Shown one piece after another: positions 1,561-7,215 of a DNA stretch of 64,000 nt. The notes under the pieces were generated by a model, which saw only the letters and a program-made list of their open reading frames with translations, was not told the DNA's origin and made no database searches. This stretch comes from Bdellovibrionales bacterium RIFCSPHIGHO2_01_FULL_40_29 (GTDB taxonomy: Bacteria > Bdellovibrionota > Bdellovibrionia > Bdellovibrionales > Bdellovibrionaceae): the NCBI GenBank assembly GCA_001771815.1, contig MEPU01000006.1, forward strand, positions 186,001 through 250,000, in the 5' to 3' direction. Positions within the stretch are counted from its first letter, which is position 1. Every line of letters starts with the position of its first letter. Both the position numbers and the translations under genes were made by a program.

Positions 1561-2865
1561 GTGAACCTACGGCGCTACGAAGACATTATAGCTATCCAAA
1601 CTCCTGACGGCATTGTTGCGTATAATGCTCATAACATGGAAGTTGCTGAACTCAGCCCTGAAGCTTTTGCTCAAATGAGCAAAATCACTCTAAAAACAAA
1701 TGCTGCCCCTGTTCAAATTCTATCTGGTGATGATGCCGCAGAATCTCTCAAATTATGGCAATCTGAACAAAATTTAGACGTCAAATCAGGTTATGTTGGA
1801 TTCGGTATTAAATCGCTAACTCTGAATGTCACCCAAATTTGTAATCTGAAATGCACCTACTGCGCAGCCGGTGGTGATGGCACTTATGGCGATCCTGTGA
1901 CTCGTATTAATGTCGAAAAAACCTTGCCTCAATTGAAATATTTTTTAGACAAACTGCCTGATAATAGTTCCTTTAATTTGTCATTTGTTGGTGGCGAACC
2001 CTTCTTGTACCCCGAAGCTATGAAAGTTATTTATGACTATATTCAGCACAAAAGTGCTGATCGAAATATAAACTGTAAATATATGGTCACGACGAACGGC
2101 ACGCTCATGACCGAAAAGGCTTTGGAACTTCTTCAAACTATGAAAATTCACGTCACTGTTAGTTTGGACGGGACGGATTCAATCAATGATCAAGTCCGCC
2201 CAACTAAGAATGGCGAATCTTCAACTGCACAAACTCTGCGAGGAATTGAAAAACTTGTCGGCATCCGCTCGTCACTGGCTTCAATTGGAATCAGTGGAGT
2301 CTATTCAGCAGAAAATCTGACTGTAAAAGATAGTTATTTATTCTTTAAAACCTTAGGTGTGGATTGGTTTGAATTCAATTTCTCATACACTGAAAAAAGT
2401 AAGGATGCCCAGCAAGAGTATCTTCGTCAAATGGGTGAAATCGCAGAACTGGCGTGGAAAACTGGCGGAGAAACAGAGCTTCGCCGCATCAAAGCTTTTA
2501 ACGCCTATTTCAATACTTTGGATTCTCAGCAACGTGTCGAAAACTTTTGCGGTGCGGGTAAAAGTTACCTCATGATTGATGCTAAAAACCAACTTTACAC
2601 CTGCCCCTGGGTAGTTGGCGAAGCTAATGAAATTGTTGGCAGAGGATCTGATTTAGACCATGCCAAGTTAGAAAAGTATCAGAAACCCTTGATAGAACTT
2701 AATAATTGTCAAACCTGCTGGGCCAAATACATCTGCGGAGGCGGCTGTATGTTCATCAACCGAGCCCACACGGGGGATAAACATTTAAAAGATGAAATGT
2801 TCTGTGAACGCACAAGGGGCTTGATTCTTCTAGGGATTATGTATTATAAAAGATGTAGAGCCTAA
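1561..2865 (+). CDS. Radical SAM/SPASM peptide maturase
   Basis: A 434-residue radical SAM enzyme. The [4Fe-4S]-SAM motif is CNLKCTYC (Cys94, Cys98, Cys101), followed by the SAM-binding GGEP segment near 145. The C-terminal SPASM region has seven cysteines at 330, 348, 383, 386, 392, 396 and 415, the spacing used to bind two auxiliary iron-sulfur clusters, plus one more at 432. Residues 1-85 form a separate N-terminal segment that could be a leader-binding domain, but I cannot assign it to PqqD/RRE by eye. SPASM enzymes of this size usually modify ribosomal peptides (sactipeptide, ranthipeptide, PqqE or mycofactocin types) or act as anaerobic sulfatase-maturing enzymes; no sulfatase is nearby but a 39-codon peptide gene follows by 22 bp. 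The start is GTG, preceded by AGGA five bases upstream. Confidence 0.88.
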   Translation: MNLRRYEDIIAIQTPDGIVAYNAHNMEVAELSPEAFAQMSKITLKTNAAPVQILSGDDAAESLKLWQSEQNLDVKSGYVGFGIKSLTLNVTQICNLKCTYCAAGGDGTYGDPVTRINVEKTLPQLKYFLDKLPDNSSFNLSFVGGEPFLYPEAMKVIYDYIQHKSADRNINCKYMVTTNGTLMTEKALELLQTMKIHVTVSLDGTDSINDQVRPTKNGESSTAQTLRGIEKLVGIRSSLASIGISGVYSAENLTVKDSYLFFKTLGVDWFEFNFSYTEKSKDAQQEYLRQMGEIAELAWKTGGETELRRIKAFNAYFNTLDSQQRVENFCGAGKSYLMIDAKNQLYTCPWVVGEANEIVGRGSDLDHAKLEKYQKPLIELNNCQTCWAKYICGGGCMFINRAHTGDKHLKDEMFCERTRGLILLGIMYYKRCRA

Positions 2866-2887
2866 TATAAAGGCAAGGGATAAAAAT

Positions 2888-3007
2888 ATGAAAACGACCA
2901 TTCAAAATCATATTAAAAAAGTAAAGCCTGCGAAGCGTGTTCAAATGAGCTCTACCGGTCTTGCTTGTATTCCCTCTGGCAATCCACCACCAGACGCCGC
3001 TAATTAA
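2888..3007 (+). CDS. Putative RiPP precursor peptide (39 aa)
   Basis: A small gene just downstream of the radical SAM maturase (22 bp gap), preceded by the purine-rich AGGCAAGGG. It encodes 39 residues: a basic N-terminal part (MKTTIQNHIKKVKPAKR) that looks like a leader, and a C-terminal part (TGLACIPSGNPPPDAAN) with one Cys, several small residues and a PPP run that looks like a core. It has no signal peptide and no membrane segment. The short length, leader/core asymmetry and position next to a SPASM enzyme are typical of precursors of ribosomally made, post-translationally modified peptides. It does not match the motifs I know for PqqA (Glu-x3-Tyr), mycofactocin (terminal Val-Tyr) or SCIFF (six Cys). 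Function and modification are inferred. Confidence 0.68.
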   Translation: MKTTIQNHIKKVKPAKRVQMSSTGLACIPSGNPPPDAAN

Positions 3008-3061
3008 TTTAACAGTTGACGTGCTCACTCTCGGTATCCCTAACGTATTTAAATTTTTAAT

Positions 3062-4957
3062 ATGAAACAGACATCATCCTCTCATCCAGAAGAGAAATCT
3101 GGTTTAAGTTCTTTGTCTTGGCGCCAATTAGCAATACGGATTGTATTTGCTGTGATTGCGTCGTCCTTGATCTCATTTTTAAAACTCGATTATATCGAAA
3201 GCTATTTTTATGATTTGCGAGTCAGTTTAAAGGCAGTAGTCGGTCTATCCCATCTGAATACCCCCCCAATTGTTTTGATAAAAATTGACACGAAAACAGT
3301 TGAGAGCTTTCAAGGGTTTCCCAATTACCAACAGCACAGTGATTTTTTAAATCAACTAACCAAGGGACAACCCCGCTTCGTGATCTATGATTTCCGCCCC
3401 AAAGATGGCGAGCTAAAAGACATCGAAGGTGATGAGTTGCAAAGAAAAACATTCGCACTTGTCGCCGGTCAGATTCCGAATTTTTATATTCCCACAGATG
3501 ACCTCGAGATGAAGGGCGAAGCTGGAAAACTCAAACTCAATTCTCCACTTGAGCAACTTAAAATTTATCCTGGAATCAAAACATCAGATACAATTTTATT
3601 TGCTAAAGATGGTGTTTATCGCCGGATGATGGTGCGCTATCAAGAGCAAAAATTGCTTCATCCCATCGTGGCTGAAAGCTTTAACCCCAAGATTCAAAAC
3701 ACCAGTGCCATTCGCGGGTTATTTAGTTTTTTTGATTCTGATCAGGCCTATATAAACTATCACCCCAACGGCTCATTTCCATCGTATTCTTTTGAAGATA
3801 TTTTAAAAGGCAATATAGATAACAATACATTCCGAGACAAAATTGTCATCGTTGGAACAGATACCGGAAAATCTGCAAAAGAATACGCCCTGACACCTTA
3901 CTCGCGCGAGATCAATGCGATGACTTCCATCGAAGTGCACGCCAACATGATTCAAACTCTTATTGATAACAACGCACCGATTCGCTTACCCAATTGGGTT
4001 AATATTCTATTTACATGTTTGATTTCAGTACTGACAGTTCACGTTGTATTGAGTCTAAAACCATCGCGTGGTCTTTTGCTGTTGGGTTCGACACTGCTTG
4101 GATTTATCACATTAGCATTTCTTTTATTTATTATTGCGGGAATTTGGATTGATATTGCTCATCCGTTTTTGACTATATTTTTGTGCTATTACTTTTTTAT
4201 CCCTTACAGGTTAATCATCGAAAACAGACGCAGCTGGGAGTATTTTCAAAAGAACAAGCTTCTGAAGCAAGTTGAGGAATTAAAAACTAATTTCATCTCG
4301 ATGATGTCTCATGATTTAAAAACTCCGATCGCCCGCATCTTAGGAATGGCCGACGTGATTTTAAAAGAAGATGTGGTTCTGAGCTCAATGCAACGCGAGG
4401 CTGTTGATACAATCAAGGTCAGCTCGAATGACCTGTTGAAGTTTATCAATGCTATCCTTCAATATGGCAGCATCGAAAGCCAGGGCGTTGAGCTGCACCG
4501 GCAATCCAAAGACATCAATCAATTGATTTTGGATGTTATCAAAAAACATGAATTTTTAGCTCAAGTTAAAAAAATCAAAATTGTCCAAGAACTAGAACCT
4601 CTATTTCCAATCCTGGTGGATCCCGAATTGATCAAGCAGGTTTTTTCTAACTTGATTGAAAATTCCATTAAGTACTCTCCTGAGGGTTCCTCTGTGGTCG
4701 TGAGAACCCGTGAATCCGGCAATGAAGTTCAAGTGGATATTATTGATCAAGGGATGGGTATTCCAACCGCCGATTTGCCAAATATCTTTATGAAATTTTT
4801 TCGCACCCATAGCGTGAAAACTTCGACGATCAAAGGCTCTGGCCTGGGGCTGTATTTGGCCTCTTATTTCGTCGAGCTGCATAAGGGCCAAATAACAGTT
4901 GTGAGTGAACCTAATCAAGGCTCTCAGTTCACTGTCAGCCTGCCATTACAGAATTAA
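3062..4957 (+). CDS. CHASE2-domain sensor histidine kinase
   Basis: A 631-residue membrane sensor kinase. One transmembrane helix lies near residues 22-40, then a large extracytoplasmic CHASE2-type domain (about 45-310, with the IDTKTVESFQGFP and KIVIVGTDTGKSAKEY segments), then three closely spaced helices (about 315-390), a short coiled coil, a HisKA domain with phospho-acceptor His417 in MMSHDLKTPIAR, and a complete HATPase domain (N box NLIENSIKYS, G1 box DQGMGIP, G2 box GSGLGL). It probably signals to the response regulator encoded 130 bp downstream. The ATG is 54 bp after the small peptide gene, with no strong ribosome binding site; a TTGACG at 3016-3021 could be part of an internal promoter. 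What CHASE2 domains bind is generally unknown; the neighbouring modified peptide is a candidate ligand. Confidence 0.88.
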   Translation: MKQTSSSHPEEKSGLSSLSWRQLAIRIVFAVIASSLISFLKLDYIESYFYDLRVSLKAVVGLSHLNTPPIVLIKIDTKTVESFQGFPNYQQHSDFLNQLTKGQPRFVIYDFRPKDGELKDIEGDELQRKTFALVAGQIPNFYIPTDDLEMKGEAGKLKLNSPLEQLKIYPGIKTSDTILFAKDGVYRRMMVRYQEQKLLHPIVAESFNPKIQNTSAIRGLFSFFDSDQAYINYHPNGSFPSYSFEDILKGNIDNNTFRDKIVIVGTDTGKSAKEYALTPYSREINAMTSIEVHANMIQTLIDNNAPIRLPNWVNILFTCLISVLTVHVVLSLKPSRGLLLLGSTLLGFITLAFLLFIIAGIWIDIAHPFLTIFLCYYFFIPYRLIIENRRSWEYFQKNKLLKQVEELKTNFISMMSHDLKTPIARILGMADVILKEDVVLSSMQREAVDTIKVSSNDLLKFINAILQYGSIESQGVELHRQSKDINQLILDVIKKHEFLAQVKKIKIVQELEPLFPILVDPELIKQVFSNLIENSIKYSPEGSSVVVRTRESGNEVQVDIIDQGMGIPTADLPNIFMKFFRTHSVKTSTIKGSGLGLYLASYFVELHKGQITVVSEPNQGSQFTVSLPLQN

Positions 4958-5087
4958 ACCTGTTCTCGATGAATAAATTCTACATGGAAAAAATTTAGTC
5001 AGTTCACAGCTTGAAGAATTTTTAAGCAAATCACTTGAGTCTATGGTATACCAATGCGGTATCGTGATTTAAACGGGGGAGTTTTTT

Positions 5088-6644
5088 ATGCTAAACGTTC
5101 TAGTTGTTGACGATGATCAGGCTCAGCGCCTTGCCGTTCGCTCAGCTCTTGAGGGCTGCAAACGCTTTAGTGTGGAAGAGGCATTTGATGGTATCAATGC
5201 TATGGAGAAGATTAAAAATTCTGATCCGACACAGCGCCATTATGACATTGTCATTCTTGATGTGGATATGCCTCGGCTCAATGGCCTGGGAACTCTGAAA
5301 CAAATCAAAGAATTTGATCCTGGTATTATTGTTTTGATGCTGACAGCTCATGCCACCGTTGAAGTTGCCGTTCAAGCCGTTCGCGATGGGGCTTATAACT
5401 TTTTATCAAAACCCATTTCCAGCGAAGACTTAATTCAATTGATTGATAAATCCATCAATGCACACACGTTGATTTCAACATTGGCAGTCTCTTCACCAGT
5501 ATTTGTTGATGAGGGTCGCAAGATCATTGGAAATACCTCTCAGATGCAAAAAGTTTTTAATGTCATTCATAAATTAGCCAAGGTGGACACTCCCGTATTG
5601 ATTCGCGGCGCCTCAGGTACAGGTAAAGAGCTTGTGGCCAAAGCAGTGCATTTCAATTCAGCTCGTAAAGATGAAAAATTCATGGCTATCAATTGCTCTG
5701 CAATTCCTGAAAACTTATTTGAATCCGAATTATTTGGGCATGAAAAAGGCTCGTTCACTGGCGCCAACGAGCGCAAAATTGGTAAATTTCAATTTGCCGA
5801 AGGCGGAACTCTCTTTTTAGATGAAATTGGCGATATGCCACAGTTGATGCAAGTTAAAATATTGCGAGTGCTTCAGGAAAAATTATTTACTCCGGTTGGA
5901 TCTAATCGTGAGATCACCTCCAATGTTCGCATCATTGCGGCGACGAATCGCCCGCTTGAAGAGATGATGAAAGACGGACGTTTTCGGGAAGATTTATTCT
6001 ATCGCTTGAATGTTGTTCCCATCTTTTTACCGCAACTTGCGGATCGAAAAGACGACTTAGAAGTTTTGATCAATATTTTTGTTAAAAAGTTCAATCAGGT
6101 TCACAATAAGAAAATGTCTGGTGTTACAAAAGACGCGCTTTCTGTTTTAAAAAAGTACAGCTGGCCCGGAAATATACGAGAACTTGAAAATGTAATCGAA
6201 CATGCGTTTGTTTTAGAATCTGAAAATAGGATCGGTCTGTCCAGCTTACCTGAAGCTGTTTTGGAAGCTGTTGGTGTGAATTTAGTCGAATCAATGGAGC
6301 AGATTCAGAGTCAATCTGAATCTCTGAAAAAATCTGCACAGGTTCTGAGCGGTGATGAATTTGATTCGGAAGATGGTTTAGATGTTGACTCAGATTCTGA
6401 TTACGATTTTACCGAAGATGGTGATGCAGATGATGTGAGCATTGCTATACCTACAAATGGGGCACTTGATTTTAACGCTCAAAAAGAAGAGTTCGAAAAA
6501 CAGTTTATTATCAAGGCCTTAAAGACTTTTAAAGGACGCATCAATCAAACAGCGTTGCATGCGAATATTCCAAAGAAAACTCTATTACGGAAAATTGAAA
6601 AGTACGGAATCGTGGCTAAAGAATATGCAGAACAAAAAAATTAA
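5088..6644 (+). CDS. Sigma-54-dependent response regulator (NtrC family)
   Basis: A 518-residue regulator with three domains: receiver (residues 1-125, phospho-acceptor Asp58 in VILDVDMP, Lys108 in FLSKP), AAA+ sigma-54 activator (about 145-385, Walker A GASGTGKE at 174-181, GSFTGA loop at 221-226, Walker B TLFLDEIGD at 241-249, arginine-finger region FREDLFYRLNV), and a C-terminal Fis-type helix-turn-helix (about 475-510). It should use ATP hydrolysis to open sigma-54 promoters after phosphorylation, probably by the CHASE2 kinase upstream. Oddly, a very acidic low-complexity insert (residues 421-449) separates the AAA+ domain from the HTH. The start ATG has GGGGGAG seven bases upstream. A -24/-12 promoter at 1484-1499 is a likely target. 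Confidence 0.92.
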   Translation: MLNVLVVDDDQAQRLAVRSALEGCKRFSVEEAFDGINAMEKIKNSDPTQRHYDIVILDVDMPRLNGLGTLKQIKEFDPGIIVLMLTAHATVEVAVQAVRDGAYNFLSKPISSEDLIQLIDKSINAHTLISTLAVSSPVFVDEGRKIIGNTSQMQKVFNVIHKLAKVDTPVLIRGASGTGKELVAKAVHFNSARKDEKFMAINCSAIPENLFESELFGHEKGSFTGANERKIGKFQFAEGGTLFLDEIGDMPQLMQVKILRVLQEKLFTPVGSNREITSNVRIIAATNRPLEEMMKDGRFREDLFYRLNVVPIFLPQLADRKDDLEVLINIFVKKFNQVHNKKMSGVTKDALSVLKKYSWPGNIRELENVIEHAFVLESENRIGLSSLPEAVLEAVGVNLVESMEQIQSQSESLKKSAQVLSGDEFDSEDGLDVDSDSDYDFTEDGDADDVSIAIPTNGALDFNAQKEEFEKQFIIKALKTFKGRINQTALHANIPKKTLLRKIEKYGIVAKEYAEQKN

Positions 6645-6690: not shown

Positions 6691-7215
6691 ATGGTGTTGA
6701 CTGATTTTTCCAAGATGGATAGCGTTGACACCCTTATGTCAGTTAATCCGTTACCACCTCAAGCCTACACGAAAGAAACTTTGCAAAAGGCCTACTCATG
6801 GCTTCTTACGCAAAGTCCGGCGATCAAAGAAATCGCCTCTTCGCAGGATATGCTGATCAGTCTTTATTTGAAAGCTCAGCGTAATGGCGAAGCCTCGTTG
6901 GAAACACCGAGCATTCAAAATTTTAAGCAAGAATTAAAATCTTTGGCTGGTATTTTGGGGGACTTGCAACCCACAAAACCTGCGCAACCCCAAGGCCAGA
7001 CTTATCCGACACCCACATCATCCCCTACAGTCCCACAGAGCTCGACGGCTGCTTTCCAACACTCTCCGGCGTCTTTGACTGCGGGATTGGATTCTGTCTC
7101 GTTACAGGCCATTGCTGATGTCAGACAAACGCTCAATCTGAGTTCGGATACAGAAGCGTTACGCGCTTTGATTGCGCTTGGACACAAGCAGTTCAAAAAA
7201 GCCAATTTCGCCTAG
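6691..7215 (+). CDS. Hypothetical protein with Pro/Ser/Thr-rich linker
   Basis: A 174-residue protein I do not recognise. Residues 1-95 are predicted mostly helical (KETLQKAYSWLLTQSPAIKE, FKQELKSLAGILGDL), followed by a Pro/Gln/Ser/Thr-rich linker (about 97-128) and a C-terminal segment (SLQAIADVRQTLNLSSDTEA) that looks like a short helical DNA- or protein-binding tail, similar in feel to ribbon-helix-helix ends. No signal peptide or membrane helix is seen. ATG 6691 is used; ATG 6715 is an alternative, and neither has a strong Shine-Dalgarno. It sits alone between the response regulator and ileS on the same strand. Confidence 0.6.
   Translation: MVLTDFSKMDSVDTLMSVNPLPPQAYTKETLQKAYSWLLTQSPAIKEIASSQDMLISLYLKAQRNGEASLETPSIQNFKQELKSLAGILGDLQPTKPAQPQGQTYPTPTSSPTVPQSSTAAFQHSPASLTAGLDSVSLQAIADVRQTLNLSSDTEALRALIALGHKQFKKANFA

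Follow-up and report, generated by a model that had tools for sequence, protein, structure and literature searches.

A one-cysteine peptide encoded between a CteB-like radical SAM/SPASM enzyme and a CHASE2/sigma-54 regulatory pair: a candidate signalling unit of Bdellovibrionales

The window analysed here is a stretch of 64,000 nucleotides from Bdellovibrionales bacterium RIFCSPHIGHO2_01_FULL_40_29 that carries, all on the forward strand, the genes of a radical SAM/SPASM peptide maturase (positions 1561-2865, 434 aa), a RiPP precursor peptide (2888-3007, 39 aa), a CHASE2 sensor histidine kinase (3062-4957, 631 aa) and an NtrC-type response regulator (5088-6644, 518 aa). The maturase was assigned from Pfam PF04055, NCBIfam, alignment, the AF2 model and the fold of CteB. 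In the same way, Pfam and hydropathy gave the kinase one N-terminal transmembrane segment, an extracytoplasmic CHASE2 domain, a hydrophobic transmembrane region (residues 311-386), HisKA and HATPase, and the regulator consists of a receiver, a sigma-54 AAA+ domain and a Fis HTH (PF00158, PF00072, PF02954). A putative sigma-54 type -24/-12 promoter element, TGGCTTTTAACTTGCT, lies at 1484-1499 on the same strand (GG at 1485-1486, GC at 1497-1498), 61 nt 5' of the GTG start of the maturase. The precursor ORF begins 22 nt after the maturase stop and is preceded by a Shine-Dalgarno-like AAGGGA. The original prediction dealt with the peptide, and the downstream kinase and regulator as well as the upstream promoter come in addition to it. 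Two neighbours were also observed, a 174-aa protein of unknown role at 6691-7215 that is found 3' of the regulator in 28/40 loci (cluster c3), and a metallo-beta-lactamase fold protein at 422-1384 on the reverse strand, divergent from the operon and found in 25/40 loci.

The precursor product, MKTTIQNHIKKVKPAKRVQMSSTGLACIPSGNPPPDAAN, has one Cys and a PPP tail, as had been described, and is single-copy in the window's genome. Its leader contains a recognition motif, HIKKVKP (residues 8-14, positions 2909-2929, + strand), which is the majority consensus of 45 precursors and is common to a divergent family with CPE cores. It is followed by the conserved core GLACIPSG (2957-2980, + strand) with Cys27 at 2966-2968 and Pro29 at 2972-2974, and by the C-terminal extension NPPPDAAN (2981-3004, + strand), which is lineage-specific and missing from most homologues. 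Neither NCBIfam nor Pfam families matched the precursor. In that respect, the claim that it fits no known class held; for the maturase it was too strong, this enzyme being clearly CteB/PapB-like.

A small ORF ending in Cys-x-Pro was found directly 3' of the maturase in 64 of the 70 non-redundant loci whose maturase gene has its end intact, a count in which the ORF flagged in locus L124 is not the precursor. The idea that the precursor is missing in six loci was rejected. Five of them keep the HIKK leader in front of a divergent Cys core and the remaining one, L113, stops at a contig edge; with a sixth divergent member, L056, added for core composition, the divergent set comprises L056, L118, L122, L124, L125 and L130. 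Moreover, the small ORF is present in all 40 loci with wide flanks, with an H-[IV]-K-K-[VI]-K-P leader and a single C-terminal Cys. Codon changes in ten orthologous pairs gave a pS of 0.53 and a pN of 0.12, which indicates purifying selection and points to an ORF that is translated and constrained. By its conservation and these codon changes, the 39-aa ORF (2888-3007) is genuine and is translated. Neither of the findings named beforehand as able to refute the original prediction, maturases in relatives lacking such a small ORF or an ORF that is not translated, was encountered, and its identification as a RiPP precursor gained support from a small ORF with leader and Cys core behind the maturase across the order. 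As individual variants, the precursor of G059 reads MTQQTHIKKIKPLKPKPSSTTKLAGPGGGTGEGCIPVR, and G010 (L002/L069) encodes two tandem precursors, MNTKTQHIKKVKPVKAIATSTTGLSCIPIG and MKTTTTKHVKKVKPSKKSSSSTTGLACIPSGLPNSSSN, behind one maturase, which suggests two related signals.

The alignment of homologues that had been proposed as a check was run. What stays constant in it is a leader of the form H-[IV]-K-K-x-K-P, a single C-terminal Cys and, at Cys+2, a Pro that Glu replaces in the divergent family. The core consensus of 61 Cys-x-Pro precursors is G-x-[GAS]-C-[IVLR]-P-[VITLS]-[GRK]. Pro stands at Cys+2 in 61/61 of them, a figure that is partly by construction as these precursors were chosen by the Cys-x-Pro motif, itself first noticed in unselected lists. 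The divergent family, also from this order, combines the shared leader with cores such as ACPERNYA or SCPEIH, in which the Cys is kept, the Pro is shifted to +1 and Glu occupies Cys+2 in 5/6 members, L130 having neither Pro nor Glu there. The lysine-rich N-terminus, the single Cys and the lack of Lys-Trp, Glu-Tyr or Val-Tyr motifs, first remarked in this peptide, proved true of the whole family, and an aromatic residue lies near the core in only 10/61 precursors. Both the Cys and the Pro-rich part had been put forward as sites of modification. The strongest candidate for bearing the chemistry is the Cys, kept in essentially every homologue and the only core residue that is constant. The PPP tail was rejected as a site: because 30/61 precursors end four residues after the Cys (for example CIPVR), NPPPDAAN is a local extension, and the conserved proline is Pro29 at Cys+2. 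No acceptor residue is invariant across all cores.

The maturase has an N-terminal RRE-like domain (about residues 1-70), a CX3CX2C motif at Cys 94/98/101 and SPASM-region Cys at 330/348/383/386/392/396/415. These ten Cys, three of the SAM cluster and seven of the SPASM region, are invariant in a 41-sequence alignment and give the pattern of a radical SAM/SPASM maturase, next to which a short precursor is encoded here whose leader and core are conserved. The AF2 model has a mean pLDDT of 93.9, and CteB was found to be its closest solved fold (VIA Z 36.9, rmsd 2.9, 398 residues aligned; Foldseek E 1e-21), in parallel with a profile search against CteB at E 1e-60. The N-terminal strands and helices of the model align with CteB from residue 7, and the alignment therefore takes in the leader-binding RRE, whose binding role here is predicted. 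TigE, SuiB and EpeE were other fold matches and PqqE a weaker one, in a VIA match list where absence of a family does not amount to its exclusion. None of the NCBIfam cutoffs was reached by the maturase: the PapB family NF047865 came best (177.8 bits against a cutoff of 340), then the nif11 maturase TIGR04064 (175.5 against 518.7), and the SCIFF family TIGR03974 scored 134.7 against 425. From the model and these matches, the enzyme is a radical SAM/SPASM protein that most resembles the thioether-forming CteB, and the tiny peptide is almost certainly modified by it. The SPASM region of anSME holds eight Cys, so that the seven found here mean one Aux I ligand fewer. This fits a substrate thiolate, given that auxiliary cluster I of CteB has an open site that is bound by the peptide Cys (PMC6231123).

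Maturase orthologues were found in 48 of 59 relatives, some matches (E up to 0.001) being distant paralogues. The maturase is present in 60/66 genomes of the family (51/53 of the good-quality Bdellovibrionaceae genomes), 81/140 genomes of the order and 82/368 genomes of the phylum, where the one additional match has only 25% identity. When 84,980 species genomes were scanned, all matches of at least 35% identity fell in Bdellovibrionales-type records, and the next-best ones outside the order dropped to 28% identity, in Chlorobium; viral contigs had only distant radical SAM proteins. By these searches, the maturase is restricted to Bdellovibrionales. Named carriers include Bdellovibrio bacteriovorus kdesi and Bdellovibrio sp. 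qaytius, and peptide, radical enzyme and sensor/regulator pair form a nearly universal gene set of Bdellovibrio-type predators. Several records call for a remark. A Bdellovibrionales contig is titled Streptomyces griseus isolate HRS-HS12-bin-158 (G032, L101/L079), and in it no regulator follows the kinase. Loci L184 and L185 were scored without a maturase, but a contig edge precedes the kinase and leaves the absence unproven. In Chlorobium (L139, L140), nif11-like precursors, whose cores include WTCGTPCES, are encoded at a distance of about 0.9 kb from the maturases.

The kinase follows maturase and peptide in 40/40 loci and in 50/50 further loci with enough sequence, two sets that overlap in species. 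The regulator belongs to the same locus in 36/40 and is in place behind the kinase in 41/43; in G030 (L128/L052), an NtrC-type regulator is found upstream and reversed instead. A strict -24/-12 site was observed 5' of the maturase in 28/39 loci against 7/255 other genes of the same loci; it is lacking in the other 11/39 maturase loci and precedes the kinase itself in 2/40. In peptide-less relatives, such a site stands directly before the kinase in 7/18. An upstream -24/-12 element is thus combined with an NtrC-type activator inside the gene set, and transcription from it is predicted. Among the 81 maturase-bearing genomes, 80 have a kinase match, some of these being at paralogue level in fragmented genomes, and the exception is 57% complete; another 41 genomes have a kinase match without maturase. 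The peptide module therefore depends on the two-component system and not the reverse. Moreover, the kinase-regulator pair occurs without the peptide in many families, and the kinase therefore has another input. The kinase tree showed six changes of peptide label, clustered and mostly vertical. When peptide-bearing and peptide-less lineages were compared, no clear peptide-specific signature was seen in the kinase sensor; the candidates, Q194 and kinase-domain columns only, were rejected as largely tracking phylogeny. Kinase and regulator are ancestral neighbours, so that the linkage may partly reflect inherited synteny.

Several known systems resemble this one in part. CteA/CteB, the SCIFF ranthipeptide system of Clostridium thermocellum, shares the trimodular RRE, radical SAM and SPASM enzyme, which is the best PDB fold and sequence match, as well as a precursor adjoining the maturase. 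In CteA, a single thioether joins Cys32 to the C-gamma of Thr34, that is Cys to Cys+2, an earlier report having put the acceptor at Thr37, and SCIFF ranthipeptides have a reported role in quorum sensing (PMC8326336). By contrast, the present precursor carries a single Cys, against six in 45 residues, another leader and Pro at +2, and its enzyme belongs to Bdellovibrionales and not Clostridia, comes with its own two-component system and stays far under the SCIFF cutoff. PapB, the best NCBIfam match, links Cys to Asp or Glu in the ranthipeptide freyrasin precursor PapA and tolerates 0 to 6 spacers (PMC9413430), which may be compared with the Glu at Cys+2 of the divergent family; nevertheless, the score is below the cutoff, the precursor has one Cys and the Cys-X3-Asp/Glu motifs are absent from it. 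The nif11-type maturases are near through the second-best NCBIfam match and through Chlorobium, but here the identity is about 28% and there is no nif11 leader. Finally, nisin is a modified peptide encoded with the histidine kinase and regulator NisRK that control its operon. The present locus is similar in encoding a kinase and a regulator with the peptide, operon control being predicted, and differs in having no lantibiotic enzymes, exporter or immunity and a sigma-54 dependent regulator. In Bdellovibrionota, a survey reported RiPP clusters but not their type (PMC8067016), and the literature searched, mostly outside subscription papers, held no published description of this system. Provisionally, the precursor family and its regulatory setting are new and the enzyme architecture is known.

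Altogether, the gene set has the look of a signalling unit that is built on a peptide and has not been described before. Genes 1561-6644 would form one sigma-54-driven operon, in which the phosphorylated regulator activates the promoter and maturase and precursor are made. The HIKKVKP leader would dock on the N-terminal RRE domain, and the CteB-like enzyme would join Cys27 through one thioether to a residue close by in GLACIPSG. A single link on Cys27 is favoured because of the Cys to Cys+2 link of CteA, the Cys-Asp/Glu links of PapB and the open site of CteB. By analogy with CteA, the leading candidate acceptor is the Cys+2 residue (Pro29 here, Glu in the divergent family), which we hold at roughly one chance in three; the alternative would be the alpha carbon of another core residue or neighbour. 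The matured peptide would then signal to the neighbouring CHASE2 kinase or modulate it and, with the regulator driving its own operon, close a feedback loop, like nisin autoinduction or the quorum role of SCIFF ranthipeptides. The loop could work as activator or brake and on either side of the membrane. CHASE2 is expected outside the cytoplasm, which is at odds with a precursor without secretion signal and an operon without exporter; no protease was found in the operon either. We infer the thioether, its acceptor, leader removal and export, and the kinase as target from gene order, conservation, translation-level selection, predicted enzyme fold and promoter motif. A ranthipeptide- or sactipeptide-like peptide with one thioether that signals to or modulates its own two-component system has, in our view, an even chance of being right. 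The most specific version, in which the sulfur of Cys27 is joined to a ring carbon of Pro29 and the peptide is a dedicated ligand of the CHASE2 kinase, near-universal in Bdellovibrio predators, is quite unlikely; it would be the first case of a signal peptide made by a radical SAM enzyme and tied firmly to a sigma-54 two-component system. To our knowledge, a cysteine-proline thioether is known in no RiPP.

The peptide could instead be an output. The two-component system would then respond to signals from envelope or prey, and the mature product would be secreted as an antimicrobial or predation aid. A sigma-54 operon behind its own activator, a kinase pair that also occurs without the peptide and hosts that are predators agree with this; however, exporter and immunity genes are absent, a near-universal, single-copy, vertical and slowly changing core is unlike bacteriocins, and the same locus is probably shared by epibiotic and invasive predators, so that we consider an effector unlikely. 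The same low probability is given to a chemistry other than a thioether, such as epimerisation, a C-C link or a Cys-dependent backbone change, or to a Cys that is a mere cluster-binding handle. SPASM enzymes with other chemistries (TigE, SuiB, EpeE) are indeed among the fold matches and a universal acceptor is absent, but the best matches in sequence and fold, CteB and PapB, make thioethers, the Cys is the sole constant core residue, and C-C cyclophanes would need an aromatic residue that most cores lack.

A peptide that gives rise to a small intracellular redox cofactor, in the manner of PQQ or mycofactocin, would suit the core-genome distribution and the weaker match to PqqE. Such a role is very improbable, as no dedicated oxidoreductase or protease was found in the operon in 40 loci and the linkage is to a signalling pair. 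Finally, a spurious ORF, with the maturase working on another substrate, would agree with the very short length and the lack of a database family; a chance ORF was nevertheless rejected on the leader and core kept across the order and on pS far above pN, and we regard it as extremely improbable.

If the signalling reading is true, Bdellovibrio predators, for which the literature searched held no such RiPP, would gain a modified peptide in their core genome. It would come with a named enzyme, a minimal one-Cys substrate and its own sigma-54 promoter as read-out. With only one Cys in the core, the acceptor can be put to a direct test, and the alternation of Pro and Glu at Cys+2 provides naturally occurring variants in which to study radical thioether chemistry. 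Through the module, cell-state or population signalling of Bdellovibrio predators would also become accessible.
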